From IMG/VR virus record IMGVR_UViG_3300042691_036561, positions 1 through 64,000 of that record: a stretch of 64,000 bases of DNA. One strand, written 5' to 3'. Each line of letters begins with the position of its first letter. Position 1 is the first letter of the stretch. Of the stretch, positions 1 to 64,000 are shown piece after piece. Origin of the DNA: a virus. The notes beneath the pieces are model-generated. The model did no database searches, was not told where the DNA came from, and saw only the letters and a program-made list of their open reading frames with translations. The position numbers were made by a program, and so were the translations under genes.

Positions 1-199
1 TCCCCGATCCAATAGATTCACCATTTATTTCAATGGTGGCTAGTATTTTCATTTTGTATGGATTATAAAGTTCGATTTCGAACTCATCACCGTTTTTGAG
101 GTATACGGTGTCTATGTGCTGTTTTAATCTTTGTTTACCCTTGGTAATAAAAGACTGCGGTACAGCAATACCGCTGTTGATTGAAATTTTTCTATTCAT
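1..199 (-). CDS. Unknown protein, N-terminal part only (runs off the window)
   Basis: An ATG at 199-197 opens a frame that stays open to position 1, giving 66 residues that begin MNRKISINSGIAVPQSFITK. The visible part is basic at first (KGKQRLKQH) and then has alternating hydrophobic/charged beta-type sequence (DTVYLKNGDEFEIELYNP). I do not recognise the family. The gene follows the clpP terminator, so it probably has its own promoter. The leader contains AAGGAA directly against the ATG, too close to act as a normal ribosome site. The C-terminus is missing only because the window ends. Confidence 0.7.
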   Translation of the reverse strand, partial: MNRKISINSGIAVPQSFITKGKQRLKQHIDTVYLKNGDEFEIELYNPYKMKILATIEINGESIGSG

Positions 200-330
200 T
201 TTCCTTATATTTTTTTTGTATTTGAATCCGAATTTGCTGGTATCAATTCCAACTCTAATGCCTCAAGGACACTTCCGATTCAACCACAAGGTCTAATATT
301 AAATATAAGGAAAATTTTTAAATAAAAAAA

Positions 331-350
331 GGGAAGTCAAAAAACTTCCC
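331..350 (-). terminator. Intrinsic terminator after clpP
   Basis: Read on the minus strand, GGGAAGT and ACTTCCC form a 7-bp stem with a 6-nt loop, followed by a run of seven T. It lies 23 nt beyond the clpP stop and before the partial gene at 199, so it should end the gp46-clpP transcript. Confidence 0.85.
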
Positions 351-372
351 ATTTTAAACACTAACCACTAAT

Positions 373-1038
373 TTATTTTTTCTTTTTGACTATTTCATCA
401 ATAATCCCATAAGCCAATGCATCATCAGCAGAAAGCCACAGATCTCTAGAAGCATCTTGCATTACTTGTTTTCCGTCTTTGTCACAATACCCACCTAACA
501 AATCAAAAAGCAAATTATTAAGCTTCTCCCATTCAATCATATCGATTTTCGCATCTTGAATGTTCCCATGGAATCCTCCACTAGACTGGTGTAACATTGT
601 ACGTGAAAATCTAAGTGACCCTCTTTTACCTTTTGTACCAGCACCTAAAAGGATTGATCCCATAGATGCAGCCATCCCAGTATTAATTGTTCTGATATCT
701 GAATTAATGTATTCCATAACATCAACCATAGATAAACCAGATTTTACTGAACCACCCGGACTATCAATATGCATTGTGATATCATTGTTATCTAGACTAT
801 CTAAGAACATTAATTGCGCTTGAACAATTGTTGACATATGATCATTTACTTCACCAGCGACCCAAATGATTCTTTCCATCATAAGTCTACTGAACACATC
901 CATCACAGTAACATTAAGGGACCTCTCCTCAAGAATATATGGTGTCAAACTATTTTCAATGTTTTTGTTAAAACGATGTAAATCTAATGAACCAATACCT
1001 CTGTCTTTCGCATAAAGACTAAAATCTTTTGTAATCAT
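373..1038 (-). CDS. clpP: ClpP-type serine protease
   Basis: 221 aa, about the normal length for a ClpP proteolytic subunit with a longer N-terminus. The catalytic triad is visible: Ser125 in GMAASMGS, His150 in MLHQSSGG and Asp199 in ASRDLW. The spacings of 25 and 49 residues equal those of E. coli ClpP. The IDSPGGSV loop (about 91-98) is the usual oxyanion-hole region. ClpP forms barrel-shaped peptidase rings fed by a AAA+ unfoldase; no ClpX or ClpA is encoded in this window, so it would have to use a host unfoldase or act alone. It is the last gene before a strong terminator, 43 nt after gp46. A role in capsid maturation is possible but unsupported; the active-site layout is that of a true ClpP. 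Confidence 0.93.
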   Translation of the reverse strand: MITKDFSLYAKDRGIGSLDLHRFNKNIENSLTPYILEERSLNVTVMDVFSRLMMERIIWVAGEVNDHMSTIVQAQLMFLDSLDNNDITMHIDSPGGSVKSGLSMVDVMEYINSDIRTINTGMAASMGSILLGAGTKGKRGSLRFSRTMLHQSSGGFHGNIQDAKIDMIEWEKLNNLLFDLLGGYCDKDGKQVMQDASRDLWLSADDALAYGIIDEIVKKKK

Positions 1039-1057
1039 AATTCTTTGTTGTTTAATA

Positions 1058-1069
1058 CAAATATAAATA
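1058..1069 (-). promoter_or_regulatory. Candidate clpP promoter (TATTTATATTTG)
   Basis: On the coding strand this 12-mer contains both the recurrent TATTTATA box of this phage (1062-1069) and TATATTTG, which fits the Bacteroidota -7 element TAnnTTTG. It ends about 20 nt before the clpP ATG. I see no clear -33 element upstream, so this remains a pattern match. Confidence 0.4.
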
Positions 1070-1081
1070 AAATTTGTGGTA

Positions 1082-3415
1082 TTAAGAAATTTTTGTTGTT
1101 ACATAATCAATAGACGAGACATTCTCTTCTTTTTTGATCATAATCAAATTGTCAGACCAGTTTCTGATCAATGGATTGTGCGATATTACAAAAATATGCT
1201 CGAAATAGTTTTTAATTTTCTTAAAGAATTCACCAACCATCTCCAAGTTCTCATCAGCTATTTTACCAAACACTTCATCCATAACAACAATATTTGGTTT
1301 TGGTAATGATGATACTTTTGTAAGTACACTTCTTAATGCTAAAGAAGATATTGTTCTTTCATACCCAGAACCAGCATTTAATGGCTTAACAACTCTAGTT
1401 TCAGAATCAATCATAATAAACTCTAATTCGTTCTTATCGTTTATATTTAATTCTAAAACAAAGTAGCAACTGTCAGAAAGTAATCTACTCAATTCTTGAT
1501 TAATAAGTGGTATCATGTTTTTCAAAATTGTTTTTGAAATACCATTTTTACCATAAGTCATCAAATAAACCTTAAATACACCTTGAAGTTCTTCCTCTGC
1601 TTTAATCTTTGTTATCAATTCGTTGTAGGTTTTAATTTTATCCTCCATCGTCGTGATATTGATTTTGTTTCTTTCAATTGTTGAATTCGAAACACGGATA
1701 TCAGCATTTACAGTTTCCAATCTAGTTCTTAACGAAAGAAGTTCGGCATCTATTTTTTGATTCTCATCAAGCTTCTTTTTATTATTCTCGTAATTATCTA
1801 GCTTAGTTTGTTTAACATTAATCTCCAAATCTTTTTGATCTACTTCAAGCTCGTATCTTGCTTTACGCAGTTTATTTCTTTCGTAGTTATCAAACTCAGA
1901 TTTAAGGGAATCAAATCCATCCGATTGTACTTTTAATTCATCAAGTTCTTTTTGATTTGAATCAACTTGAGAACTAATTTCTTTAATCTCTTTCTTTAAA
2001 CTTTCAATCTCATCTGTATGATCAACTTCGTCTAAGGCTCTCTTACAGGTTGGACATATCTTTCCCTCTTCAAGTTGTTTTATTAACTTTTCTTTTTCAC
2101 CTTTAGTGTGCTTACACGCAACAATAACCGAATACACATCACCCATTTTTTCTTTTAGGTCTTTGTGTTCATCTTCGCTGTAATATTTGGATGGTTCTTT
2201 CACATCTACAGCTTCTGCGTTTCTTTTGCTTGTTGCTTTTTGTGTGTTTAATTCTTCGATCTCTCGTTGAAGTGCAACGGGATTCGTTTTAATTAGTTCC
2301 TGATCAATATCATTTGATCTCAAGCCAAGAATATAGTCTCTTCTATCCTCCAATTCTTTTAACTTATTACCATAGTCGGTTAAAAGATTTGTATGCTCAA
2401 AGATTTGATCTTTAGAATTTTCAATGCTTTCATTACTAGCTTCAATATCAGCTTCTAATTGTGCGATATTATGAGTATTGCTAATTAATTTTCTAGACCA
2501 ATCATTATAGATTTCTTTACAAATCTCTTCCTTTTGCTTTAGATTTTCTAAACCCAAAAACTTAGTTAAGATTTGACCTCTCGCTGTTGGCTTAGATTCA
2601 ATTAATTCTTCTAGATTATAACCAGTAGTTAAAATTGTAGAAAGAAAATCTTCTTGCGTTCCGATCGCTGATTCAATAAACGTCTCAGTTTCTCTTCTTT
2701 GTTCTCCTGTTAAATTCTCAAGTTCACCATCTTCCTTTTCTTTATAGAATTCTAATTCGCTTTTTACAGAGTATTCGCCGGATCTACCTTTCTTTCTGGT
2801 TAATGTTCTGGAGATAACATAATTTTCTCCATCAATTGTTATATGTCCTTTTACAACAACTTCATCTTCGTCGGTAAATTTATTGAAAACCTCGCCGTTT
2901 GTTTTTGTTTTAGTTGTTGTATTAAAGAATAAAAACATTAATAGATCAACACTTGAAGTTGACTTACCACCAAAGTTTCTAGGATTTGATTCAATAACAC
3001 TAATACCATTCAATTCGGTAAAATCAATACTGTTGTTTTTACCAAAAGAAAGAAAGTTTGAGAACTCAACTTTCTTAATAAACCATTTATTGTATCTTAC
3101 TTTATTCTCATTGATTTTATCTATTTGAGAATTAACACGATTGTCTAATCTATCTAACAGCTCCCACTTAACATTAACCTTATTTTCGGTTAGAAAATCT
3201 TTCATTAACGTTTTTTGGTACTGATGGTCTAATATACTATCAGTAACCTCTAGAGTCTTCAGCTTTGTATTTTGCTTCTGACTTAAGGTTTTTGTAACAA
3301 CTTGTACATGTGTTGTGTTGTACTTATTTTGAAAGTACGTTTTAACACGTTTAATTCTTTCTGGGGTAAAGTTCTCAGCAACGTCTTCCCACTCAACTTT
3401 AATAAAAGGATTCAT
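1082..3415 (-). CDS. 46: SbcC/Rad50-like recombination nuclease subunit (T4 gp46-like)
   Basis: 777 aa SMC-type ATPase. A degenerate Walker A (NPRNFGGKSTS, Lys151) follows the typical IKKVEFSNFLSFG start. Long Lys/Glu-rich coiled coils flank a zinc hook (CPTC, near residue 453), and the C-terminal Walker B is NIVVMDEVFG. With gp47 it should form the Mre11/Rad50-type complex that processes DNA ends for recombination-dependent replication. About 110 residues precede the usual N-terminus; this extension is not part of the family core and is of unknown role. T4 gp46 is about 560 aa, so this version is long. Two small genes separate it from gp47. Confidence 0.92.
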   Translation of the reverse strand: MNPFIKVEWEDVAENFTPERIKRVKTYFQNKYNTTHVQVVTKTLSQKQNTKLKTLEVTDSILDHQYQKTLMKDFLTENKVNVKWELLDRLDNRVNSQIDKINENKVRYNKWFIKKVEFSNFLSFGKNNSIDFTELNGISVIESNPRNFGGKSTSSVDLLMFLFFNTTTKTKTNGEVFNKFTDEDEVVVKGHITIDGENYVISRTLTRKKGRSGEYSVKSELEFYKEKEDGELENLTGEQRRETETFIESAIGTQEDFLSTILTTGYNLEELIESKPTARGQILTKFLGLENLKQKEEICKEIYNDWSRKLISNTHNIAQLEADIEASNESIENSKDQIFEHTNLLTDYGNKLKELEDRRDYILGLRSNDIDQELIKTNPVALQREIEELNTQKATSKRNAEAVDVKEPSKYYSEDEHKDLKEKMGDVYSVIVACKHTKGEKEKLIKQLEEGKICPTCKRALDEVDHTDEIESLKKEIKEISSQVDSNQKELDELKVQSDGFDSLKSEFDNYERNKLRKARYELEVDQKDLEINVKQTKLDNYENNKKKLDENQKIDAELLSLRTRLETVNADIRVSNSTIERNKINITTMEDKIKTYNELITKIKAEEELQGVFKVYLMTYGKNGISKTILKNMIPLINQELSRLLSDSCYFVLELNINDKNELEFIMIDSETRVVKPLNAGSGYERTISSLALRSVLTKVSSLPKPNIVVMDEVFGKIADENLEMVGEFFKKIKNYFEHIFVISHNPLIRNWSDNLIMIKKEENVSSIDYVTTKIS

Positions 3416-3460
3416 ATCTGTTAAAGATAATGTTTTTGTTTTGAAATTAAAAATTTTCTT

Positions 3461-3775
3461 TTACTTAATTCTACTTTCTTCAAAAAATTCTATGACACCA
3501 TTAATTGCCCAAACGATTCCGCAGGTAAACATACCATCGAAGAAAACACCAAATAGCCAATTAACATCTAGAAATTTTTCAGTTAACCCACCCAAAAGAA
3601 TTGACATAAAGAAACCAACCCAAGTAGATGTACACATCATGCAGCTAATTAGATCACCAAAGAATTTAGATTTCTTTTTAATCCAAGCTCGTTGGTTTTC
3701 AAAAATTGATCCGTAAACTAAAATAGTGGTCATACCGTAACCCATAAATGCCCACAAGATTAAAACTGATACCAT
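3461..3775 (-). CDS. Small membrane protein with a CxxC motif
   Basis: 104 aa with hydrophobic segments near residues 3-22 (VSVLILWAFMGYGMTTILVY), 50-63 and 74-94, so two or three membrane helices. Between the first two is a soluble loop with KFFGDLISCMMCTSTW, a CxxC pair at the membrane edge. Short phage and bacterial inner-membrane proteins of the DUF1360 type have a similar layout, but I cannot confirm membership. It sits between gp46 and the repeat protein within the recombination operon. Function unknown. Confidence 0.75.
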   Translation of the reverse strand: MVSVLILWAFMGYGMTTILVYGSIFENQRAWIKKKSKFFGDLISCMMCTSTWVGFFMSILLGGLTEKFLDVNWLFGVFFDGMFTCGIVWAINGVIEFFEESRIK

Positions 3776-3785
3776 AATTTAAATT

Positions 3786-4286
3786 TTATTCGTCATATAG
3801 ATTATTCAAGTCGCTACCCTTTAGATATTTCGCTTTATTCATTTTTTCTAAAGCGGTTGTTATCTTGGTTAGTTCGTCTTTTAATTTATCATTTTCCAGC
3901 TTTAAAGCTTTAACTTCATCATCATTAACAACCACCTTTTCAATAGGTACTTCTTTAATTACTTCTTTGATGATTACTTGTTTTTCGCCTTTAACTTGTA
4001 CTGGAACTTCTTTAATTACCTCAACAATTTTCTCAACAGGAACCTCTTTAATTATTTCAACTGTTTTTATAACTTCAACAATCTTTTCAACAGGAACTTC
4101 CTTAATCACTTCTTTGATTACCTCTACTTCTTTTCCTTTTGCTGTTGTTGGTGTTTCACCATATTTTTCTATGGTAAATCCTCTTTGAAATATTTTTTTA
4201 GCTGTTCCTTCGATGTCTGTAATATTGTTAAGCTCACAATACCTTACAAATTCATCATCCAGCGTTAACGAGTTCTTCTTTTTCAT
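3786..4286 (-). CDS. Val/Ile-Lys-Glu repeat coiled-coil protein
   Basis: 166 aa. Residues 1-50 form a small helical head. Residues about 52-120 are tandem repeats around EVIKEVPVEKIVEVIK, and the end (about 123-155) is a classical coiled coil (VKALKLENDKLKDELTKI). The alternating Val/Ile with Lys/Glu suggests a long beta-strand or rod-like stalk. The start overlaps the end of the gp47 frame by 32 nt, showing tight translational coupling. Proteins with EVPVEK-type repeats are common in large phages, but no function is established that I can name. Placement between gp47 and gp46 hints at a link to that complex or to DNA. Confidence 0.8.
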   Translation of the reverse strand: MKKKNSLTLDDEFVRYCELNNITDIEGTAKKIFQRGFTIEKYGETPTTAKGKEVEVIKEVIKEVPVEKIVEVIKTVEIIKEVPVEKIVEVIKEVPVQVKGEKQVIIKEVIKEVPIEKVVVNDDEVKALKLENDKLKDELTKITTALEKMNKAKYLKGSDLNNLYDE

Positions 4287-5070
4287 CTTGAATATCGTTT
4301 ATATCTGAAATGGTGAAATGCATATATGGTTGATTATTTGGCAAATCAAAGAAATCATACTTTTTTGTCACCATATCAAATATCCCATAACCATGATGTT
4401 TAACTGTTTCACCAAAGTTTTGTTGAATAAGAGAACCAATCATAACCGCTAATCCACCACCAGGTAATTTAAATGTTTGTCTTTTATGAATATCACCACA
4501 TAAAAGTAAATCTAATCCAACAAAGTTTAAACGATCATACCCATCTTCAAATTTAAAGCCAAGATCTGTTGACATACCTTGTATTGGTCCGTGAAACAAA
4601 CCAATTTTATAACGACCGTCTGCTTTAAAATCTGGTCTTTCATTGTGTTGGTACAATGAATATACAACCCAATCAACATCTTCATCTTCATACACACCTT
4701 TGTCTTTTAGATAAACAATATTTTTATTGTCTATTAATTCTACAACCGGTGTTATACTATCTAATCGTTGCATATTATTTTCTAAGAAATCGTGGTTTCC
4801 CGGAATAATAACAACCTTACCATAACTAGAAAGTTTATTTAAAAACCAACTGGTTAACATTAGTTGTTCGTTTGAAATATTGATTTTCTGATGTGCAATA
4901 TCGCCAGCAATAACAATACGAATCTCATCCCATTTAACACCTTCAGATGTCCATTGTGCACTATGTTCTCTAATTTCTTCAATTAGCTTTTCAAATTGCT
5001 CTTTATACAAATCATGTAATTGAATTGTTCTGATGTGTAAATCTGCAATGTGTACAATTTTTTTAATCAT
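4255..5070 (-). CDS. 47: SbcD/Mre11-like nuclease subunit (T4 gp47-like)
   Basis: 271 aa calcineurin-type metallophosphoesterase. The metal-binding motifs appear in order: HIADLH (residues 7-12), GDIAH, GNHD, then LFHGP and CGDIHKRQ. This is the nuclease half of the gp46/gp47 complex that resects DNA ends. At 271 aa it is shorter than T4 gp47 (about 340 aa) and probably keeps only a minimal capping domain. The ATG lies 1 nt after the stop of the upstream nuclease gene at 5072, so the genes are co-transcribed. Confidence 0.93.
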   Translation of the reverse strand: MIKKIVHIADLHIRTIQLHDLYKEQFEKLIEEIREHSAQWTSEGVKWDEIRIVIAGDIAHQKINISNEQLMLTSWFLNKLSSYGKVVIIPGNHDFLENNMQRLDSITPVVELIDNKNIVYLKDKGVYEDEDVDWVVYSLYQHNERPDFKADGRYKIGLFHGPIQGMSTDLGFKFEDGYDRLNFVGLDLLLCGDIHKRQTFKLPGGGLAVMIGSLIQQNFGETVKHHGYGIFDMVTKKYDFFDLPNNQPYMHFTISDINDIQDEKEELVNAG

Positions 5071-5071
5071 T

Positions 5072-5833
5072 TTATTTTGAGTTTAACATGTCGATAATCT
5101 CTTTTCTCATGTCTGCACATTTGAAAACTTTGTAATTGTCATTACCTTCAAAAAACCAAACGAAATATAGATCCCCTATCTTTAAGTTTGTGTTCTTTTC
5201 GATAATATATTTGTATAGACTTGTTTGAAGACTATATGTATTATATTCACATTCATCTAAATGTGAGATTGGTCTTTTAAATCTATTTCCATAATCACTC
5301 TTCATGTTTATGGCTTTGTTTGTTTTCCAGTCCCAGATTTGAATCTGATTGCTTTTCTTGTTCCAGAATAGTTGGTCTACCATTCCACATATACCTAATT
5401 CAGCATCGCCAATTACAAATTCGCTTTTTAAAGGTATTAAATTTGCTTTACTATCGTTATAGAATCTATCAAATAGTTTTACACATTTGTCATATGCTGG
5501 TTTAACAATGTCTTCACCAAACCTGTTAACAGCTGGTGACGAATCGTATGGAAATATTTTATTATTCCAATGGTTTTCAGCATAATCATGCACTGCGCTT
5601 CCTTTGATGGTGCTATAATCTCTTTTGTGATCCCATTCGGCTAATACCTCTTCTTTAACAAGACCGTGTTTATTTGCATATCTTTCAGCTTGACCATCGC
5701 TGTCAAATTTGTTTTTAAACTTTCCAATAAAAGTGGTGGCAGATGTTAATAATTGATCTTCAATATAATAGTGATGTGGTTCATCATGATATTTGATGTG
5801 ATCAAACTTGTTTAATTCTAATAGTAAATCCAT
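5072..5833 (-). CDS. PD-(D/E)XK nuclease, RecB/Cas4-like
   Basis: 253 aa. The motifs fit the RecB-type PD-(D/E)XK fold: a histidine in GSAVHDYAENHW (near residue 81), an aspartate in GICGMVDQLFW (near 153) and the D-x-K pair in IWDWKTNK (near 170). I see no cysteine cluster, so no Cas4-type iron-sulphur site. It lies between primase and gp47 with 1-nt spacers, which suggests a role in DNA end processing or recombination. Substrate unknown. Confidence 0.8.
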   Translation of the reverse strand: MDLLLELNKFDHIKYHDEPHHYYIEDQLLTSATTFIGKFKNKFDSDGQAERYANKHGLVKEEVLAEWDHKRDYSTIKGSAVHDYAENHWNNKIFPYDSSPAVNRFGEDIVKPAYDKCVKLFDRFYNDSKANLIPLKSEFVIGDAELGICGMVDQLFWNKKSNQIQIWDWKTNKAINMKSDYGNRFKRPISHLDECEYNTYSLQTSLYKYIIEKNTNLKIGDLYFVWFFEGNDNYKVFKCADMRKEIIDMLNSK

Positions 5834-5834
5834 A

Positions 5835-6773
5835 TTAATCTAATTGTAGTTTTTCTAAATTTTCAAAATCACCTTTTAAGTCAGCAATATCTTTGTCTAT
5901 AGGCATTTTAACAACCCACACTTTACCAAACAATTTTCCTGTATTCAGTTTATGGTAAAGTCTTTGTGCATCTTCCCAGGCGTCACCATCTAATACAATC
6001 ACAATCTCTTTTGCGTTTGCATAAAGCTTTGAGTAAAGAAACTCACCCATAACCTTACCTAGCATTGCTATTGAGTTATCAACAAATATACTGTCAAAAA
6101 CCCCTTCAACAAGATAAATCGTTCTATTCCAATCTATTAGGTGTTCATTGAAAATAATAATTTCTTTTTGAACATCTGGGTTTTTATATTTCATTTTGGT
6201 CTTTGGTAAATAAGACCTGGCAATAAAATAATTGAGTTTTCTGTTTACATCATAAGATGGAATTATGATTCTATTTGCAAATAAACCATCATGTGCAAAC
6301 CCTATATTATGTTTATTAACCATATCATCTGTTATATTCCTACTTCTGATATAGTTGTATGCTTGCCTGTAATGATGTGTGAGTTTTAACCCCATACTTG
6401 CTCCTGAAAATGGAATAAACTCATTTGGGAGTTTAGCTATTTTAGTGATTTTCTGCGGTTGTTCAACGTCTTCTGGGCGCATTAACTCATAAAACTGTAG
6501 TTGCTTTTTTGTGCCATATTTTTTTATGAGTTTGTAAAGATTTCCGTGGGTTTCGTGAGTTTCACCACAAGACCAACATTTGTAAACCCCCATTCTATAG
6601 TTGATTTCCAGGTTCCCTTTACCATCACCTTCATCCAATCCTTTAATTTCATAGGAACAAACAGGGCAATCAAAAGATATTTGACCTTTATAGTCATTAT
6701 GCATCTTGTAGTTACCAAGAATATCCTCTAAAAGTTCAACAATTTGGTCGAAATCGGTGTCTGTTGCGGTCAT
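5835..6773 (-). CDS. 61: DNA primase (T4 gp61-like, zinc ribbon plus TOPRIM)
   Basis: 312 aa. An N-terminal zinc ribbon has cysteines 36, 39, 66 and 69 (CPVC and CWSC). A TOPRIM domain follows, with the glutamate motif YLVEGVFDS (near 215) and the aspartate motif VIVLDGDAWEDAQ (near 260). It should make RNA primers for lagging-strand synthesis together with the helicase at 40844-42235. It is the first gene after a strong terminator, so it needs its own start of transcription; the leader has TATATTT, a possible -10 element. Confidence 0.88.
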   Translation of the reverse strand: MTATDTDFDQIVELLEDILGNYKMHNDYKGQISFDCPVCSYEIKGLDEGDGKGNLEINYRMGVYKCWSCGETHETHGNLYKLIKKYGTKKQLQFYELMRPEDVEQPQKITKIAKLPNEFIPFSGASMGLKLTHHYRQAYNYIRSRNITDDMVNKHNIGFAHDGLFANRIIIPSYDVNRKLNYFIARSYLPKTKMKYKNPDVQKEIIIFNEHLIDWNRTIYLVEGVFDSIFVDNSIAMLGKVMGEFLYSKLYANAKEIVIVLDGDAWEDAQRLYHKLNTGKLFGKVWVVKMPIDKDIADLKGDFENLEKLQLD

Positions 6774-6810
6774 ATTTTAAATATAAGTAAAAAAAACCGT
6801 AAAAAAAAAT

Positions 6811-6834
6811 CCCCAGAGACACCACCCTCTGGGG
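6811..6834 (-). terminator. Intrinsic terminator
   Basis: CCCCAGAG and CTCTGGGG form an 8-bp stem with an 8-nt loop; on the minus strand it is followed by A and nine T. It separates the resolvase/68-aa gene pair from the primase operon. Confidence 0.92.
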
Positions 6835-6844
6835 AACCAACCAA

Positions 6845-6864
6845 AATGTAAATAAATTTACATT
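6845..6864. repeat. 20-bp inverted repeat beside the terminator
   Basis: AATGTAAAT and ATTTACATT are perfect 9-bp arms around AA. The element lies 10 bp upstream of the terminator stem in transcript order, so it is either a second RNA hairpin in the 3' UTR or a protein-binding operator. The GC-rich GGCGGG just before it is unusual for this AT-rich spacer. Confidence 0.6.
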
Positions 6865-6905
6865 CCCGCCTACATTATTAAATATAACACAAATAATAAC
6901 ATTTA

Positions 6906-7112
6906 TCAAACATTAGTTGCCATTTTTTCTTTAGTCTTCTTTTCTTTGATAATTCCAACAGGATAATAAGTAATTTGATCAATAGTAATTGAATTTATTT
7001 TATATCCTGTGTTTGGGTTTGTAACATTAATTCTTTTACTGATACTGGTATCATAAATAACATTTTCAAGTACTACTTTTCCGTCGACCATTCTTTTAAT
7101 TGTTTTTTCCAT
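6906..7112 (-). CDS. Small unknown protein, 68 aa
   Basis: A basic protein (MEKTIKRMVDGKVVLENVIY) with beta-rich central sequence and a Lys-rich end (KEKKTKEK). No known domain recognised. The start is 2 nt after the resolvase stop, so the two are translated from one message that ends at the terminator at 6811. Confidence 0.65.
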   Translation of the reverse strand: MEKTIKRMVDGKVVLENVIYDTSISKRINVTNPNTGYKINSITIDQITYYPVGIIKEKKTKEKMATNV

Positions 7113-7114
7113 TT

Positions 7115-7717
7115 TTAATCGTTTTCTTTTATCATGTTTATATATCCTATAACAGCTGTTGCAGCATCAGCCATATCATAGTTCTCTTTTTTTAAGTTAC
7201 CTGTTTTACCATATAACCATTTTACTTCTGTACACACAGCGTTAACATGTTCCCAGATAACGTGTTTTTTATCTATATCTTTTGGATAACCGCCGAACAA
7301 TACGTTCTTACCTTTACCATTGTCACCAACTAAATCTGGAAATGCAAACTTTCTAGCGTTGTATGTTGAAATAAATGTTGGTACAATCTCTAACACATCA
7401 TAAACCGCTTTACAGATCATGGTATTATAACGAAGTAGTGTACCTACTGTGTAGATATTATTGGAATTTAATAACGGCTCTTCAATAATAACTTTTACAA
7501 TACCTAGATTCTTATATGCTTCTAGATGCTTTTTAAAAGCGTCAGCCTTTTTTATTAATTCTTCTAATTTATCTTCAGGTTGTGGTTTTATTTTTGGGGA
7601 AAAATGTGTTAATTCTAATAACTTTTTTCCAGTAAGGTCAAATAAAGCCCACCCAATTGTCTTGGTTGAAATATCTAAACCAAGAATCTTCGATTTGTTT
7701 TTGAATTTAAGGTCCAT
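7115..7717 (-). CDS. RuvC-like Holliday junction resolvase
   Basis: 200 aa RNase H-fold nuclease. Four acidic positions typical of RuvC are visible: Asp15 in ILGLDISTKTIGWA, Glu79/80 in VIIEEPL, and Asp181 and Asp184 in YDMADAATA. It probably resolves branched replication and recombination intermediates before packaging, the role of gp49 in T4, although gp49 is endonuclease VII and unrelated. The gene follows the fibre locus after 39 nt and precedes the 68-aa gene. Confidence 0.88.
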   Translation of the reverse strand: MDLKFKNKSKILGLDISTKTIGWALFDLTGKKLLELTHFSPKIKPQPEDKLEELIKKADAFKKHLEAYKNLGIVKVIIEEPLLNSNNIYTVGTLLRYNTMICKAVYDVLEIVPTFISTYNARKFAFPDLVGDNGKGKNVLFGGYPKDIDKKHVIWEHVNAVCTEVKWLYGKTGNLKKENYDMADAATAVIGYINMIKEND

Positions 7718-7756
7718 AAAACAAATAATAAGAAAAAATAAATCTATAGTAAAGTC

Positions 7757-9865
7757 TTAGAAATCAATTCTAACGGAAAATACCTGGTTACCTGTTCTTT
7801 CTAACGGTTTAGCTAATTTAGCTGTAACTAAAGGCTCTTTATTTTCATTTAATAATGCTACCTCTGTTATTCTTTTTGGTTGCCCAGTAACATATGTTGG
7901 GTTCTGGCTTGTTAAGAATTGTGTTCCAGGTAGATTAACCATGAAATTTAAAACCTCTACGTCAGTTGCCCTTGTTAATTGAACTGCACCTGGGAAAGGT
8001 TGTGAATCTCCAAACTGTGGTAATGTTGGTTGATCGATATTTGGTAATGGGCCAAGATAATTTTCTATATCATATGTAGGTGCAGTAATGGCACTATCAT
8101 ACATATCTCCGGTGATAACAAATTGGTAACCACACATATTTGTTTTAGAAATAAGGTTACCGACAGTGTGTCCAGATATTTGTGTTGTTAAGTCAATAAT
8201 TTTCCATCCGTCTGATGATGGTGGATTACCTGTTTGTACAACTTGAACTAATGCATAAAATTTATTTGCTGTAAACCCGGTAAAATATGATGAATTACTT
8301 AAAAATTTAAAATCACCGGTTTCAAATCTAAAACCAATATTTGAATTTGTTGTTCCTGTGATCTTTCCATAATAGTTACAATGCATACCATTTCTATAGG
8401 TGTCACCAGTGTATTGGAACATATATGTAACCCAAGCGGTTTCTCCTGTAAGAACTACTGGATCTAAATCATAGAATGTCGGTAAATCTAATGGCACTGT
8501 GTTGAATCTAGGTGCTGGTAATGTATATTTTCTATTTGTTTTATATTCTAATACGGCCACCAATTCTTGGTCATCAAATACAATAATTTTTTTATCAACA
8601 AATACTTTACCAACACGAATACCTTGTTCGTCTAATAAAAATCTAAACTTAAGATTGTTTGTGTTTGGTTTAGTATTTTTTGCTGATGAAACATAATAAT
8701 CAGTTGTATCCATCACAAATTTTGCGCCGATTGTTGTTCCGGTATTTCTGTGATAAAAAATAAAAGGAATATAAACTTCAAAATGATTAACATCAGAAAC
8801 TAAATCATCTGGATCGTATGTGTAATATTCTTCATCTGTTTCGCTCCCAATATAATCATCATATTTAAAAAATCTTTCTGGATCATTAACAATGTCACCT
8901 AATTCTGAATAATGAATAACCGCAATACATCTTTGATCTTCTGGTTTTACATCTATTCTTTCTCCAAATGAGTTAGTATATGATGTTGGATTAGAAATCG
9001 TCCCACCAGTTAAATTTGTAAATGTTTGGCCGGTAGAGGTATAACCTAAGTATTCTTTTAATGATGCGAACTGTGTTCCAGTATAACCACTTAATGCTTC
9101 ATCTGATGCGTCTAATCCAGCTGGTTTTTGTGTCCATATTGTTTCTAGTGTCCATGGATCGTGTTGTGCTAGATTGTCAACTGGTAATGGTGAACAAACC
9201 GTAGAGCCTGTTGGTGCTTCTGGGTATTCTAAACTACATCTATTGCAAATAACTTGTGCATATCCGGTCTCCGCTGAAAGATTTGGCATCGGTCTGTCAA
9301 ATGTTAATTCTGTAGGACTAACATTTGTGATTTTATAAACTAAGCTTTGTGATGTCCCACTTATAACATAATTTTGACTAACAAATTGATTCTTAAATAC
9401 TAATGTTACGAATTCACACTGTGAATAACCTGTAGCATTAGGAACTGATAAAATATTAGTTCCATCAACTTCTGATAATGATATTTCTTTAACTAAGCAT
9501 TCAACAGTGGTTCCAGTACAAACATCACTATCATATGGTCTATAGTTTGTAACGAATCCAGCTGGGCCCATTGCATTTTTTAATGTGGTTGTTATTGATT
9601 GTTCAACAGCGTTACCATAGTTGATTGTATCTGTACCTGTTAATAGATAGGGATACTTCACATGTTGATCTCCATCCATAGGCGCCAATACCCTTTGTCT
9701 TGGTGTTGTGCCTGCCCCGGTAAATCCACTAAAAGTATAATCAAATTCAGAATCGCCAACCTGAAAATATTTTATAACAAAATTACCTTCAGCGATAGAT
9801 TTTCTACCCTTTCTGGTTATTCTTGCTGATAAGAATTCTGAATTACTGCTATCTAAAAAGCTCAT
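7757..9865 (-). CDS. Virion structural protein, probably tail/baseplate associated
   Basis: 702 aa, no signal peptide or membrane helix. The N-terminus (SEFLSARITRKGRKSIAEGN) is the most conserved-looking part; the rest is Gly/Thr/Tyr-rich beta sequence with scattered cysteines (CNRCSLEYPEAP near 215). It ends in a regular beta domain. It lacks the Thr/Pro linkers of its upstream neighbours, so it is more likely a fixed tail component than an exchangeable fibre. It is the last gene of the baseplate-fibre series. Family not recognised. Confidence 0.65.
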   Translation of the reverse strand: MSFLDSSNSEFLSARITRKGRKSIAEGNFVIKYFQVGDSEFDYTFSGFTGAGTTPRQRVLAPMDGDQHVKYPYLLTGTDTINYGNAVEQSITTTLKNAMGPAGFVTNYRPYDSDVCTGTTVECLVKEISLSEVDGTNILSVPNATGYSQCEFVTLVFKNQFVSQNYVISGTSQSLVYKITNVSPTELTFDRPMPNLSAETGYAQVICNRCSLEYPEAPTGSTVCSPLPVDNLAQHDPWTLETIWTQKPAGLDASDEALSGYTGTQFASLKEYLGYTSTGQTFTNLTGGTISNPTSYTNSFGERIDVKPEDQRCIAVIHYSELGDIVNDPERFFKYDDYIGSETDEEYYTYDPDDLVSDVNHFEVYIPFIFYHRNTGTTIGAKFVMDTTDYYVSSAKNTKPNTNNLKFRFLLDEQGIRVGKVFVDKKIIVFDDQELVAVLEYKTNRKYTLPAPRFNTVPLDLPTFYDLDPVVLTGETAWVTYMFQYTGDTYRNGMHCNYYGKITGTTNSNIGFRFETGDFKFLSNSSYFTGFTANKFYALVQVVQTGNPPSSDGWKIIDLTTQISGHTVGNLISKTNMCGYQFVITGDMYDSAITAPTYDIENYLGPLPNIDQPTLPQFGDSQPFPGAVQLTRATDVEVLNFMVNLPGTQFLTSQNPTYVTGQPKRITEVALLNENKEPLVTAKLAKPLERTGNQVFSVRIDF

Positions 9866-40843: not shown

Positions 40844-42235
40844 TTACTTGTTTAATAATTCTTTTTGTGCTAAATATTCGTTGTAGATTTTGTTCTTGCG
40901 CTGCTTTGCTTCTTCTTCCTTATCGGTTTTGAAACCAAGCAAAGTATTTTGATGGTCAACATCAATTTCAAGAAACTCATTATTGAATTTGCAGTTATTG
41001 AATACAACACCATCTTTACCGATTCTGGATTTCAATAATGTTAATGTTGCAAGATTCATTTCTTTTTGTTCAATTGTTTTACCAATAGACAATACAACGT
41101 GTCCAATTTGGGCTTTTTTAATAGATCCACCCATTTGATCTGTGGTTACTACTTCACTCTTAATAGATTCTCTATTACCTTGGGTAGCAGTCCATATTGC
41201 GATATCAAATTCAGATGTCATAGCTTCTAATTGTCTCATAATTGCACCATCTCCCTTCCACTCTTCATTATAATTTGTCTTCTCAGGGGTGATACAATCA
41301 ACATAGTCCAAAGTTAGTAAATCTACTCTAAAACCATCAGCTTGCATCTTTCTTAATTTTGATTTAATTTCAGAAATTGTAACAGAATCACTAGGTAACT
41401 TCAGTAATCTAAGCTCGCCAGTTGATATACTTTTTCTTTCTGTTACAATTTTCTCAACCTCTTCAGCATGTAATGGTTGTTCTTTTGGAGAAATACCGGT
41501 CCAAATGGTAAAATGTTTTCGTTTAATGTTATTAACGTTATCTTCAAAGAAAACTTGAACAACATTGTAACCCTGATTAAAGGCCTCGTTAGAGAATTTA
41601 GTCAATAAAGTTGTTTTACCTGTTCCGGTTGGGGCTAAGACTACCCCAAGTTCGCCTCTTCCCAAACCACCATCCAATAGGTTGTCAATACCCACAACGC
41701 CTGTTGGTATTGGTCTTCTATTATCAGCTTGTAAAGCTAAGCTAATACTATCAAAGATGTCTACTACATCATTATCACTAACACCAACTTGTAGAGCGTC
41801 TTGAATTAGTTTCTCAATTTTGTGGTACTCTTCAAATTCACCCTTAGCTGTTATCTCCTCTATTTTCTTGATGGTTTTCTTAAGAACTTGCTGCTTACAG
41901 AAGTTCATAGCTTTGTCCTTAATTAAAGGAATTCCACCCTGATCAATAACGTGGTCTTGTATATTCTTAATGGTATCAATAAAAGCAGTCCTGGCTGTGT
42001 CTGAAACGCTTTCTGATAATATTTTTTGTTCTAATGCGGTATATGAAGGTAGTGTTTCGTATTTTTCATAACACTCCTTAATATTTTGCATAATGAACTT
42101 AAACCCATTATTGTCAAAATAGTTTTGATCTATGACCTCAACAATAGTTTCACCGAATTTTCGGTCTTCTATAATAGTTTTTAATAGTGATATTTGATAC
42201 GTTTGCCCTAAATGGCCAAAATTTTTCTCGGTCAT
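40844..42235 (-). CDS. 41: Replicative DNA helicase (DnaB family, T4 gp41-like)
   Basis: 463 aa, near the size of T4 gp41 (475 aa). An N-terminal helical domain (about 1-150) precedes a RecA-type core starting [20 protein letters not shown]. Walker A is APTGTGKTT (Lys207), Walker B is LLTLDYVD, and the sensor-like strand is [13 protein letters not shown]. The hexamer unwinds DNA at the fork and works with the primase at 5835-6773. Genes are spaced 14-29 nt from neighbours. Confidence 0.9.
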
Positions 42236-59981: not shown

Positions 59982-60000
59982 ATTACTAGTGCTATAATAT

Positions 60001-60008
60001 TATAAATA
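60001..60008 (-). promoter_or_regulatory. TATTTATA box before the tape-measure gene
   Basis: Exact TATTTATA on the coding strand, 4 nt after the frameshift-ORF stop and 19 nt before the ATG at 59981. Confidence 0.42.
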
Positions 60009-60011
60009 GTT

Positions 60012-60155
60012 TTATTCAGTTTTTTGTAATATAGCATTAATCATACTTGTTCTTTCGTGAATTGGTAGAATTAAGATATCTTGATAACTAAATCCTCTTG
60101 ATACAAGAAATAGTATTGTTTCTATTTGACTTTTTTTATATTCCGTAGAAGGGAC
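60012..60155 (-). CDS. Frameshift extension of the gp26-like protein (gp51/gpT-like)
   Basis: A 47-codon frame without an ATG starts inside the end of the gp26-like gene in the +1 (or -2) frame and stops 30 nt before the tape-measure gene. Its product starts VPSTEYKKSQIETILFLVSR and goes on with GFSYQDILILPIHERTSM, ending in ILQKTE, which is well-formed helical protein and not random sequence. Fused after residue 240 it would give a protein of about 287 aa. The arrangement tube, chaperone, frameshifted extension, tape measure is that of the G/GT tail assembly chaperones of lambda and many myophages. Expression is inferred from coding quality and the T6 slip site; a separate TTG start cannot be excluded. 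Confidence 0.68.
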   Translation of the reverse strand, partial: VPSTEYKKSQIETILFLVSRGFSYQDILILPIHERTSMINAILQKTE

Positions 60156-60876
60156 GAAAAAATTCCACCCCAAAGTCAACCAAAACTGGGACCTTTTCTC
60201 CTGACGGGGCGATTACATCTACTATTAAGTCTAAACCTGGTTTATTTTCTGATACAAATTTTTTAAATTCTAACGAATCTTTAATTGGTAGATTTTGAAT
60301 AAATTGATAAATAGCCATTTGATCTCTTTGACCTTCTACCGATTTTATCATCATTTCCAATCTTTTTGTATTAACAGGAGCAACGTTTGTGCCACTTGAT
60401 TCTTTAATTAATTGTAATTCTTTTTCTTGTGTATTTGATAAAAACTTAAAAGTTACATTCTTTTTGGATACTGGAAGACTAAAAGTATATTCACCGTTAG
60501 CATCTGGTGTCAATTTAAAGTCTTTTACCTTTAAAACAGATAAATCTATTACAGTTTCAAATTGCTTTTTTGTTGCTGGGTCTGTAATTGTTACTGTATA
60601 CTCAGTTCCAAATGCGGTATTTCTTAAAAATATTAATATTGCTTGTCTATCTTCTTCTACAATCTCATCAAAAGAAACATCTTTATCTAAAATTTTTCTT
60701 TTTAATAATTCATCCACAACTGTTTCGGATTGAATCAGGTTTGGTGACATTAAAATATTTTCATCTGATGCAGTTAAGTATGCAACTCTTAATGATTTTC
60801 TTCCGTTGGAATAATGTACACCTTGAGAAGGTAATTGAACAACATCATACGCAACCATTGGGTTAATATTTTCCAT
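60136..60876 (-). CDS. 26: gp26-like tail/baseplate assembly protein
   Basis: 246 aa. The signature of T4-type gp26 proteins is clear: VVQLPSQGVHYSNGRKSLRV followed by AYLTASDENILMSPNLIQSE and TVVDELLKRKI. The middle is beta (FKLTPDANGEYTFSLPVSKK) and the end is helical (QMAIYQFIQNLPIKDSLEFK). In T4 gp26 acts with gp51 in hub assembly; such proteins are probably counterparts of lambda gpG chaperones. The zero-frame ends FFRPFYGI-stop, while a slip at TTTTTT leads to the extension at 60012-60155. The gene follows the terminator and parS-like element by about 60 nt. Confidence 0.82.
   Translation of the reverse strand: MENINPMVAYDVVQLPSQGVHYSNGRKSLRVAYLTASDENILMSPNLIQSETVVDELLKRKILDKDVSFDEIVEEDRQAILIFLRNTAFGTEYTVTITDPATKKQFETVIDLSVLKVKDFKLTPDANGEYTFSLPVSKKNVTFKFLSNTQEKELQLIKESSGTNVAPVNTKRLEMMIKSVEGQRDQMAIYQFIQNLPIKDSLEFKKFVSENKPGLDLIVDVIAPSGEKVPVLVDFGVEFFRPFYGI
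60157..60162 (-). other. Candidate frameshift slip site (TTT TTT CGT)
   Basis: Six T on the coding strand, in codons 239-240 (Phe-Phe), 18 nt before the zero-frame stop. A +1 slip lets the Phe tRNA move from TTT to the cognate TTC; a -2 slip re-pairs fully with TTT. Both give the same extension frame at 60012-60155. Confidence 0.55.
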
Positions 60877-60937
60877 AATAGTATTGAATTCTTTTCTTTT
60901 AATATAACTATAAAATAATTAAAAATCAACAGTGTAA

Positions 60938-60953
60938 GGTTTCACGTGGAACA
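60938..60953. promoter_or_regulatory. parS-like 16-mer
   Basis: The minus strand reads TGTTCCACGTGAAACC, which fits the bacterial ParB-binding consensus TGTTNCACGTGNAACA at every position of its 12-base core; only the final base differs. It lies in non-coding DNA between the tail-tube terminator and the gp26-like gene, and abuts another palindrome at 60953-60965. No ParB gene is in the window. Confidence 0.7.
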
Positions 60954-60965
60954 CTTGTTACAAGT
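60953..60965. repeat. Palindrome next to the parS-like site
   Basis: ACTTGT-T-ACAAGT, a perfect 13-bp inverted repeat that shares its first base with the parS-like site. Likely a second protein-binding half of the same element, or coincidence. Confidence 0.55.
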
Positions 60966-60987
60966 AATTGATAATCAGTTAAATAAA

Positions 60988-61020
60988 AATCCCACATCCG
61001 TTTTTCACGAATATGGGATT
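60988..61020 (-). terminator. Intrinsic terminator after the tail tube gene
   Basis: A 14-bp stem (AATCCCATATTCGT with ACGGATGTGGGATT, two G-U pairs) and a GAAAA loop on the minus strand, followed by TTTTATTT. It lies 21 nt after the tail-tube stop. Confidence 0.93.
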
Positions 61021-61041
61021 ATAAATAAAACTATTTGAATA

Positions 61042-61530
61042 TTAGTAAACTTGGATACATCTATCCATTCTTAGTTCAGCATCGATTGAAGCTAAAGCAT
61101 CTTCTGAATAGCTAAGATCACCAAAATTTAAACTTGTTAAGAAACAGCCTTCTAAAATCCACTTCTCAACAACAACCCCTGTTGGATCTAACATTTCAAG
61201 TTCTACGTTCTTTTTATATCCTGCAGCATAGCCCATTCTACCGGTTACGGATTCAGCATGAAGACGGAACCATTCCATCAATGCTTGGGATGCAGATGGA
61301 CCAATTGGATCTTTAAAAGTAACCTTAATTGGGTCCCAGGTAAATCTACCTGCTACATATGTTGAAGTATTTAAAAACGGAATTTCAGTTGAATTAATTT
61401 TAGCACTAGGACGGGATGTAGATGTTACATACCACTCGTTGATACCCAAAGATGATGGAAATCTTAGGATAAACCTATTTTTACGTTTCGGCTCATATGG
61501 AACCGGCATTTTCATTAATAAATCTGCCAT
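61042..61530 (-). CDS. 19: Tail tube protein (T4 gp19-like)
   Basis: 162 aa, the size of T4 gp19 (163 aa). Family features: the N-terminal KRKNRFILRFP, the ISSRP-like segment STSRPSAKINSTEIPFLNTS, TFKDPIGPSASQALMEWFRL, and the C-terminal EKWILEGCFLTSLNFGDLSY plus RMDRCIQVY. It stacks in hexameric rings to form the inner tube. A long leader with an octamer array separates it from the sheath, and a strong terminator follows, so the tube is probably made from its own abundant message. Confidence 0.93.
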   Translation of the reverse strand: MADLLMKMPVPYEPKRKNRFILRFPSSLGINEWYVTSTSRPSAKINSTEIPFLNTSTYVAGRFTWDPIKVTFKDPIGPSASQALMEWFRLHAESVTGRMGYAAGYKKNVELEMLDPTGVVVEKWILEGCFLTSLNFGDLSYSEDALASIDAELRMDRCIQVY

Positions 61531-61567
61531 TGTGTTTGTGTTATATTGTTTTGTTTATTTCTTTCCT

Positions 61568-61575
61568 TATAAATA
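61568..61575 (-). promoter_or_regulatory. TATTTATA box before the tail tube gene
   Basis: Exact TATTTATA on the coding strand, 37 nt before the ATG at 61530 and just downstream (in transcript sense) of the octamer array. An AAATAAATTTATTT palindrome lies at 61588-61601. Confidence 0.45.
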
Positions 61576-61644
61576 TATCAATATTAGAAATAAATTTATT
61601 TTTCAAAATACTTGACTTTTTGGAAAAAAATCGTTAGCTTTTTG

Positions 61645-61824: not shown

Positions 61825-64000
61825 TTAGATATTCTCAAAAGAAGCTCCTGTTGGTGTAATAATAAACTCAACATCAATAAATTCTAACGCTCTTGTAGGT
61901 TTGATGTAAATCTTACCTCTCAATGTGTTAGCATCAATATCTTCTGGATCGTTTGATACGCTTACACGGAAATCATAAAGACCTCTTTCTTTCTTAATTG
62001 ATTCAAGAATTGGGTTAACCAATCTTAAGAACTCTTGTCTAACTTGATCATCGTTTTGTTCAAACAATAATCTTACAGCTACTGCAGATATTAACTTTCT
62101 TGCTCTTAATAATAATCTTCTTACGTTGATTCTATCAAGTGCTGATTCTCTAACTTGTAACGTTTTGTTACCCCAGATAATAGTACCTGTATCAGAGAAT
62201 GTTGCAATTGGGTTAATTCTAGCTTTGTAAAGTTCATCTCTTTCATCAAGAGTTAACTTCTTAGTTGCTTTGATTGAGTTAACAAGACCTCTTGAATAAC
62301 CAGCGACCGCAAACCATGGGTAAGATACATTATCAGTTAATGCAATATTCTTCAATACTTCACCTGTTGGCGGAATATAAAGTTGTGTAGCGTTATCTGT
62401 ATCTCTTACTTGAATCCAAGGCCAGTAAGTTGCTGAGTAGTTAGAATCGAATCCTAAATCATCTAAAGCACCAATTACTTCGTCAGCACCTGTTGTACCA
62501 CTAAAGTTAGGAGCGTTGATGATATAAAGCGAGTCTGCTCTATCATTCTCAATAATATCAACCGCCTGATTTACAAGTGAGCTATGGTCATTCCAGTTAA
62601 TACCTGGTGTAGCAAAAATATTAATATCAACAGCTTCAGGATTTTTGAATGTTTCAATACCTTGTAAAAATGCATAGTAATCTGAGTTACCAACTAAACT
62701 ATTGAATACACCGCCATTAGTTGTGTGCCCACTTATGTAAGTTGTCTTTCCGAAAATGAAACCATCTCCGTTTGATCTAACATTTCTATAGATATCCCAA
62801 CCATCAAATCCACCAAATACTGGTAATGTAAATTTACGGAAATTAACACCATCTAATTTACCTTTATCAGTACCTTCTAAATCGTATGAAGTTGTTTTAA
62901 ATAATTTTTCACCAGTAGTTCCTGTAATATTTGCTGCGTTAACAGACAAGTGGAAACCAAAAGACGAATCAGTTGCATCGGTACCTTTAAATTTGAACAT
63001 ATCTCTATCGAAAATGAAGTGTTCATCTGTAGATAAACCTAATGTAACCTTCTTAACCTTATCACCATTTGTTGTTACAGGGGTTCCGTCTATATTGTAG
63101 TATAGAACATCACCAGCATCGTAGTATTTTGTTTTAAAACGAATACCACCAACATTAGCTTTTGTTGTTACGCCCTTGAAACCAGCTGGGATTGCATCTG
63201 TTGGAGCATCATCTGCCATAACCAACATAATGTACTTAGATCTTAATTCATATTCACCATCAGAAGTACCGATCTTTCTACCAACATAACCTGGAAGATC
63301 TGGATTCATAGTACATCTACTATATTTTTCTAATACAACTTGATTTGCATCAGTATCGTTGAAATCACGAACAAGAACATCAAATTCACCTGTGTCTAAA
63401 TCAATATTTTGAACAGTTACTTTAACTTCGTAATTAGATGCATCACCATCAGATATTGTTAAGAAACTGAATAGGTCAAATACCTTACCGCCCCTAACTT
63501 CAGAAACGATGGTTGAAGATCCAGCCATATCCCACTGGGTCATGAAGTTATCACCTTCAGTTGCGTTTACAACTGTTGTACTTAAACCTCTAATTAAACC
63601 TTGTTCAAAAAGATTTGAAACTAAGTTTGGATATGCTTCGTGTACATATAATGGATATTCAATTTTATCTTTATCAAATACATCAGCACCAATTACCTTT
63701 GTAAGGTATTTTGTGGAAGTTTGATCTAAAGAACAATTAAATGTTCTAACATCACTATCGATATCAGTTACTTGAATTGTAAAGTCAGCTAAAGGATTGG
63801 TTGATAATCCAGAGCCACTAACACTAACAGTTGTGCCGGTTACTCTATGTGTTAATACGTTTTGAATATAGTTACCTCTAGATCTTAATAAGCAAACTTG
63901 CATATCATGATAATCAGTATTCAAAGACGCGTTATACTTAAATCTTGTAACGGTAAATTCTGAAGTACCAGTTGAGTAAACAAAAAGGTATGAATATACA
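61825..64000 (-). CDS. 18: Tail sheath protein (T4 gp18-like), start outside the window
   Basis: At least 725 codons; the frame is open to the end of the window (residues such as GTSEFTVTRFKYNASLNTDY precede the first internal start-like codon, a TTG at 63924), so the true start lies beyond 64000. The C-terminal half has the sheath signature: YIINAPNF, YSATYWPWIQVRD, YIPPTGEVLKNIALTDNVSY, PWFAVAGYSRGLVNS, the helix LTLDERDELYKARINPIATF and NKTLQVRESALDRINVRRLL. The contractile sheath surrounds the tail tube and links to the baseplate through gp25. Complete except for the missing N-terminus. Confidence 0.93.
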   Translation of the reverse strand, partial: VYSYLFVYSTGTSEFTVTRFKYNASLNTDYHDMQVCLLRSRGNYIQNVLTHRVTGTTVSVSGSGLSTNPLADFTIQVTDIDSDVRTFNCSLDQTSTKYLTKVIGADVFDKDKIEYPLYVHEAYPNLVSNLFEQGLIRGLSTTVVNATEGDNFMTQWDMAGSSTIVSEVRGGKVFDLFSFLTISDGDASNYEVKVTVQNIDLDTGEFDVLVRDFNDTDANQVVLEKYSRCTMNPDLPGYVGRKIGTSDGEYELRSKYIMLVMADDAPTDAIPAGFKGVTTKANVGGIRFKTKYYDAGDVLYYNIDGTPVTTNGDKVKKVTLGLSTDEHFIFDRDMFKFKGTDATDSSFGFHLSVNAANITGTTGEKLFKTTSYDLEGTDKGKLDGVNFRKFTLPVFGGFDGWDIYRNVRSNGDGFIFGKTTYISGHTTNGGVFNSLVGNSDYYAFLQGIETFKNPEAVDINIFATPGINWNDHSSLVNQAVDIIENDRADSLYIINAPNFSGTTGADEVIGALDDLGFDSNYSATYWPWIQVRDTDNATQLYIPPTGEVLKNIALTDNVSYPWFAVAGYSRGLVNSIKATKKLTLDERDELYKARINPIATFSDTGTIIWGNKTLQVRESALDRINVRRLLLRARKLISAVAVRLLFEQNDDQVRQEFLRLVNPILESIKKERGLYDFRVSVSNDPEDIDANTLRGKIYIKPTRALEFIDVEFIITPTGASFENI

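Follow-up and report, generated by a model that had tools for sequence, protein, structure and literature searches.

The locus analyzed here raises the question why a phage with T4-like tail genes keeps, in a spacer between two of these genes, a palindrome with the sequence of a bacterial partition site (parS), and which protein reads it. We analyzed a stretch of 64,000 nt, here referred to as the window, which belongs to a virus record of 88,775 bases, together with related phages, genomes of the presumed host phylum and viral sequences at large. The best explanation, to which we assign a probability of about 0.58, is that the palindrome is a parS mimic and a candidate loading site for the chromosomal ParB of the host. 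The phages carrying it form a T4-like family, and among the records searched a single relative yielded a ParB-like gene.

A parS-like site in a tail gene spacer

The parS-like core comprises 14 bp (60939–60952). It reads GTTCCACGTGAAAC on the minus strand and GTTTCACGTGGAAC on the plus strand, and both GTTYCAC half-sites are intact. The core GTTNCACGTGNAAC that characterizes chromosome-type parS is matched exactly, which confirmed the agreement at all defined positions on the minus strand reported by the sequence-only reading. This was the single match to GTTNCACGTGNAAC in the window; none of 100 dinucleotide shuffles contained one, and at the GC content of the window (32.65%) 0.0018 matches are expected per 64 kb, in agreement with the earlier estimate of about 0.002. 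Bases 64001–88775 of the record were covered as well by the searches for the core motif, for PF02195 and for the ParB-like protein of the relative G016 described below. The further sites and the ParB gene for which a search had been proposed did not appear: the whole record of 88,775 bases carried just this one GTTNCACGTGNAAC site and no PF02195 match.

Within the 16-bp frame TGTTCCACGTGAAACC (60938–60953, minus strand) the outermost pair varies among relatives. Scored as a 16-mer against TGTTTCACGTGAAACA with up to three mismatches, the site was not significant by itself, since 40 of 100 shuffles reached the same score. The case for the site rests on the fixed core bases and on conservation, not on the mismatch-tolerant 16-mer score. 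As a separate observation, GTTCCANNTGGAAC with up to two mismatches occurred 11 times in the window compared to 2.2 times expected from shuffles (largest shuffle 6). These near-matches, the site aside, appear to be located within genes, and codon use may explain the excess. DnaA-box-like words in the window showed no excess over chance (20 versus 28 expected).

The site is located in a spacer of 165 bp (60877–61041) between the tail tube gene and the baseplate hub gene, so the earlier claim that it lies in a real spacer was borne out. Profile matches identified three neighbouring minus-strand genes as T4-type tail genes, as had been proposed: the baseplate hub gene (60136–60876; PF12322 T4_baseplate, phrog_150), the tail tube gene (61042–61530; phrog_4542, with PF06841 gp19 under its cut-off) and the tail sheath gene (61825–63999; PF04984, phrog_23), which is open at the end of the window. 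Read along the minus strand, the order is tube gene, terminator-like hairpin, 13-bp palindrome, site, promoter-like stretch and hub gene. The hairpin resembles an intrinsic terminator (60988–61020, minus strand) and consists of 14 pairs followed by a T-rich stretch 3' of the tube gene. The promoter-like stretch TTGATT...TATATT (60901–60929, minus strand) between site and hub gene shares 9 of 12 positions with the consensus. Such stretches were no more numerous in the window than expected by chance; the blocks TTGATTT and TATA(G/C)TTAT were found again in the spacers of relatives.

The perfect 13-bp palindrome ACTTGTTACAAGT that had been described as abutting the site is indeed present (60953–60965). 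It is not conserved: in the nearest relatives (L005–L008) it is broken, and the parS-like core there is identical to that of the window. We therefore judged the adjoining palindrome to be incidental and rejected it as a part of the site.

Conservation of the site in related phages

A search of IMG/VR with the hub protein yielded 80 relatives. Omitting L042, whose contig begins inside the gene, 79 loci and the window gave 80 tube-hub spacers, 38 of which were distinct. In 22 of the 38 distinct spacers (51 of all 80) GTTCCANNTGGAAC was present with at most one mismatch in the arms, and the remaining 16 distinct spacers differed from it by at least four mismatches. Among the 22 spacers the identity of the arm columns was at least 0.83 in 11 of 12 columns and 0.68 in the last one. 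The flank columns ranged from 0.23 to 0.49 in 21 of 24 cases, the other three showing 0.67, 0.68 and 1.00. The comparison with related phages that the sequence-only reading had asked for thus came out in favour of the site. That reading had named as counting against it a site neither conserved in related phages nor bound by host or phage ParB; since the site is conserved, the first half of this objection falls away.

The site also occurs at a second position. Four relatives (L036, L037, L047 and L051) have no tube-hub site and carry one with no or one mismatch in the spacer between sheath and tube gene, approximately 850 bp upstream. A second copy with at most one mismatch in the sheath-tube region was absent from all 15 tube-hub carriers tested (L056 was too short and was omitted); three of these showed a match with two mismatches where the tube gene begins. 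In 13 other loci the site was found in neither spacer. The second position uncouples the site from individual promoters and is among the strongest points for host ParB as the reader.

A tree of the hub proteins with 30 rows (29 loci and the window) contained a branch with a support of 100/100 that separates 24 rows from six. The larger side consists of 19 tube-hub carriers, the four sheath-tube carriers and L076, which has the site in neither spacer and four sites elsewhere on its contig. The six rows of the other side carry the site in neither spacer. Absence of the site from the two spacers of the sister group was accompanied by its absence elsewhere, as a search of 20 further contigs over their whole length matched GTTNCANNTGNAAC in no sister-group contig. 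Taken together, the footprint and the second position show that the site is maintained by selection in the phage family.

Two further relatives, L140 and L232, came from the motif-only scans of viral sequences described below. In both, an exact TGTTCCACGTGGAACA precedes the tube gene; in L232 it lies in the sheath-tube spacer. In L140 (5245–6771) an HNH homing endonuclease gene is located beside the tail tube gene, with the perfect parS-like 16-mer between them. Apart from the site, the stretches before the tube gene in L037 (2133–2330), L047 (2090–2290), L140 (4960–5260) and L232 (560–920) resemble each other; by eye they share, over approximately 200 nt, ACTGGAAC/CTAG-like repeats and a TAAAAAACTACG(A/G)AAAA block.

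Among named phages a DNA-level search with positions 60000–61600 of the window gave no match, and the site is absent from the whole genome of Flavobacterium phage immuto, which has the same gene order. Like the lack of the site in the sister-group spacers, this counts against host ParB as the reader. A second GTTCCACATGGAAC was noticed in the 251-kb record G003 (41403–41416; L099 1904–1917), at a place which by eye looks like coding sequence.

Comparison with chromosomal parS of Bacteroidota

The host of the phage is presumably a member of the Bacteroidota. A Shine-Dalgarno-like stretch was found for only one of the 37 genes examined on the minus strand of the window, and scarce Shine-Dalgarno stretches are expected for Bacteroidota. 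Furthermore, Flavobacterium phage immuto shows the order sheath, a 162-aa protein annotated as 'tail completion' in place of the tube, and hub. We only infer this host, since the named sheath match with the best coverage came from a Microcystis phage (31% identity over 89%, compared to 36% over 45% for immuto).

The sample of the phylum was centred on a metagenome-assembled genome (MAG) titled Bacteroidaceae bacterium. A Bacteroidaceae MAG from goat reticulum encoded one distant relative of the hub protein (32% identity), which was used just to reach the genomes of the phylum. GTTNCACGTGNAAC was present in 111 of the 118 genomes of this sample and the reversed control pattern in 15 of 118. Most genomes carried two copies among the matches listed. 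The one genome examined in detail had its parS site at the end of mnmG, and 26 of 28 genome stretches examined around such sites contained mnmG. Of 60 genomes sampled from one family, 53 carried GTTCCANNTGGAAC, nearly always with a CG centre among the matches listed.

The 69 core-intact host sites from 28 genomes were distributed over GTTTCACGTGAAAC (19), GTTCCACGTGGAAC (19), GTTTCACGTGGAAC (18) and GTTCCACGTGAAAC (13). The last two are the site of the window on either strand, i.e. the asymmetric form. Rare variants of the phages were found in host clusters as well, namely GTTCCATGTGGAAC (G080 and G139), GTTCCACAAGGAAC (G139) and a form ending in GGAAT (G150). The assignment of the site to the host parS type was supported, Bacteroidota chromosomes carrying the same core and often the same asymmetric form. 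We favour host ParB as the reader on account of this correspondence with host parS, which extends to rare variants, together with the footprint and the second position.

The phage sites depart from host parS in the centre. Across 26 distinct phage spacers the central dinucleotide was CG in 12 (including the window), TG in seven and CA in seven. Non-CG centres were thus present in 14 of 26 phage spacers in contrast to five of 74 host-cluster sites, a count made by eye with two doubtful matches (L362 and L363) left out, and from host loci that had been picked by a canonical site and are therefore biased toward a CG centre. A CACGTG centre was present in 69 of 74 host sites compared to 12 of 26 spacers of the phage family, which does not share the constraint on the centre seen in hosts. 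On the tree, the centre must have switched between CG and non-CG seven times, with three of the switches forced by well supported branches. A TA centre was found in none of the 26 phage spacers, which is only a hint.

All 26 phage spacers had at least one intact GTTYCAC half, which is nearly forced because most of the remaining spacers carry a single mismatch. Both halves were intact in six, the window included, and the full GTTYCACGTGRAAC was likewise matched in six of the 26. The outer T/A pair was not preferred in the 22 phage spacers, compared to 36 of 69 sites in hosts. Additionally, the TG-centre form GTTCCATGTGGAAC was present in seven of 296 genomes of the phylum, which is no clear excess over the five hits of the reversed control; two of the seven genomic occurrences were located in a parS cluster and five inside long open frames.

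A study on P. aeruginosa (PMC4368675) ranks parS sites by their mismatches and describes an intact CACGTG core as important for ParB binding. In view of this the relaxed phage forms would probably bind ParB less well, or would be read by another protein. Half-parS of P. aeruginosa, as tabulated in a review (PMC7022226), include both GTTCCAC and GTTTCAC. The relaxed centre in many relatives speaks against a strict parS function, to judge from the aligned sites, and this free centre is the strongest point against host ParB as the reader.

Candidate readers of the site

If host ParB reads the site, the following course of events may be proposed. After injection, and above all once replication has multiplied the phage genomes, host ParB-CTP dimers would recognize both GTTYCAC half-sites, form closed clamps and spread by sliding into the late genes on either side. 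The clamps could recruit ParA or Smc-ScpAB functions that position, compact or disentangle the phage DNA; they could also, or instead, deplete ParB at the chromosome, where parS copies are few. That host ParB binds the site, that it loads there as a clamp and that the phage benefits are inferred.

The closest precedent for a parS mimic is the SGI1 family, whose parS-like sites hijack the ParABS system of IncC plasmids (PMC10954446). Both cases would involve a mobile element with parS mimics that exploits the ParB of another replicon. A mimic of the SGI1 type should equal the parS of a co-resident replicon, and the phage site equals parS of the Bacteroidota, the presumed host. However, for SGI1 it is a plasmid ParB that is exploited, and binding, stability and incompatibility are reported as demonstrated; the phage is T4-like and the exploited ParB is presumed to be the chromosomal one of the host.

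Compared to chromosomal ParABS, with which it shares the core GTTYCACGTGRAAC and an asymmetric form common in the Bacteroidota sample, the phage has a single site between late tail genes and no ParB_N match in its record, and centre and outer pair are relaxed in its relatives. Plasmid-prophages of the P1 type resemble it in that phage DNA carries a centromere-like site. P1-type elements, however, bring genes for ParA and ParB with them and use different centromere sequences, whereas no ParB_N was found in 14 phage records.

In the open-licence literature on parS with phages or Bacteroidota we found, among the matches listed, no parS of a lytic phage lacking ParB and no report of phages using host ParB on their own DNA. 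The term 'parS-like' in PMC11849849 is the name of a toxin-antitoxin protein and not a relevant site. Should host ParB load at the site, phages would apply to themselves the machinery with which bacteria segregate their chromosomes. ParB-CTP clamps or Smc would then be linked, in a direct and testable manner, to the replication of the phage or its takeover of the host, and one simple site would allow ParB to be followed in infected cells by ChIP or imaging.

The main rival is an operator for another protein, of phage or host origin, which reads GTTCCA-NN-TGGAAC at the junctions between terminators and promoters of tail genes. We consider it clearly less probable than loading of host ParB, but a serious competitor. 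Such a protein could stop read-through as a roadblock, or it could activate or repress the promoter of the hub (or tube) gene, and the likeness to parS would be due to convergence or to a past origin from parS. Fixed arms around a free 2-bp centre, unlike host parS, are what an operator of this kind would predict. Furthermore, in each of the 22 spacers a distance of 71–81 bp separates the start of the site from the start codon of the hub gene, and the site lies between the terminator and the promoter-like stretch. In some other phages similar sites are located just 3' of terminator-like hairpins, but as only five of 41 intergenic TGTTCCACGTGGAACA sites had such a hairpin within 60 bp, the link to terminators is not general. 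Spacing between the site and the -10 of the promoter-like stretch amounted to 24, 25, 26, 32 or 47 bp with no helical phase, so that a fixed-distance activator site is unsupported; this spacing does not count against a roadblock. The sheath-tube position in four lineages argues against an operator, which would also leave the match to all fixed parS bases and the rare host variants unexplained. If another protein does read the site, a conserved regulator with parS-like specificity awaits discovery.

A ParB-type protein of the phages themselves, encoded beyond the available part of the genome or overlooked by our searches, with the site as its centromere or operator, would be in line with the own ParB elsewhere that the sequence-only reading had considered. 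We regard it as unlikely. The record of the window phage is probably incomplete, which leaves room for such a gene, but PF02195 (ParB_N) gave no match in any of the 14 phage records searched. These were 14 of the 19 records G000–G018, up to 251 kb in size and most of them fragments, and the sensitivity of the profile was limited, as it overlooked a ParB-like ORF in G016, the record of L076. This ORF (634–1398; phrog_12305, E 1.8e-20; in Pfam only a weak match to GmrSD_N) is located between two of the four parS-like sites of G016 (485, 1615, 3098 and 4209), an arrangement that favours a reader encoded by the phage. Against it, phrog_12305 was not found in G001, G003, G004 and G007, and the G016 protein was found in G016 alone among 17 records. 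Proteins with a ParB-CTPase fold are reported to occur in phages (PMC12704722). The ORF beside the sites in G016 resembles these cases, from which the window phage differs in that its record and 13 relatives had no ParB_N match and the feature is a DNA site.

Each of the four sites in G016 is nested within an outer inverted repeat TTTTGGCAGT...ACTGCCAAAA. The word TTATCCACA, which we take to be a DnaA box, occurs 14 times in G016, and six of these copies directly precede the four parS-like sites. A second contig with an identical ORF (G423) carries five such units. The arrays of four to five units of TTATCCACA and TTTTGGCAGT...ACTGCCAAAA extend over 380–4330 of L098 (G016 1–9000) and 1177–5800 of L426. 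From its composition the array looks like a possible module of one T4-like relative that combines origin and partition functions. Although seen in that relative and not in the window phage, it would support a role of the motif in replication or partition.

An RNA hairpin GUUCC-ACGU-GGAAC in the transcript, serving for example as an additional stop signal or to stabilize the RNA, appears even more improbable. The conserved arms around a free loop would suit it, and by eye the site of L048–L050 and L054 lies inside a longer hairpin before a T run. Also by eye, the window form has a C·A mismatch in the sense-strand stem, the outer pair is broken in L023 and L040, and no two-sided compensatory change occurred among the 26 spacers, all of which argue against pairing in RNA; moreover, being located 3' of the terminator, the site should be little transcribed from upstream. 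A chance match or neutral remnant, in line with the single site of most records and with a mismatch-tolerant 16-mer that is not rare, is contradicted by the footprint in 22 of 38 distinct spacers and by the sheath-tube position, and was rejected as highly improbable.

For the preferred reader, host ParB, a wider distribution of sites may be considered. Tentatively, and as a less likely proposal than the one for the window family, many phages without ParB might keep one or a few parS sites in spacers next to strongly expressed late genes (capsid, sheath, tube and terminase) as a common way to hijack host ParB, whose clamps would organise, insulate or segregate the numerous phage genomes and at the same time strip ParB from the origin of the host. 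Scans of IMG/VR with the 14-mer and the 16-mer yielded at least 120 stretches each. The 14-mer GTTCCACGTGGAAC had T before and A after it in 60 of 121 sites, compared to 10 of 91 other 14-bp palindromes from the same loci. The 16-mer TGTTCCACGTGGAACA was located outside ORFs of at least 70 codons in 41 of 122 distinct sites from at least 120 stretches, compared to one of 45 distinct sites for the control TGTTCCAGCTGGAACA (54 in the full scan), the two sets differing in median GC (0.48 and 0.38). As further baselines, none of 18 14-mers lacking both flank bases was free of ORFs, and of 1840 random positions 116 were. With looser ORF rules and repeats kept, 47 sites of the 16-mer were intergenic.

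PF02195 was found in one of 31 contigs carrying the 14-mer, which were picked by hand and include many fragments. An origin of the viral sites from host flanks of prophages was rejected, as a MnmG query matched none of the viral loci compared to 26 of 28 host loci. Several sites adjoin genes for head proteins and DNA packaging. In L206 (310–380) TGTTCCACGTGGAACA and TGTTTCACGTGAAACA, with starts 24 bp apart, are located just upstream of the gene for the terminase large subunit; L237, L265, L274 and L275 have sequences similar to L206, in which the terminase was identified. Directly 3' of the major head protein gene, TGTTCCACGTGGAACA was found in L200 (8770), L172 (1509) and L176 (4628).
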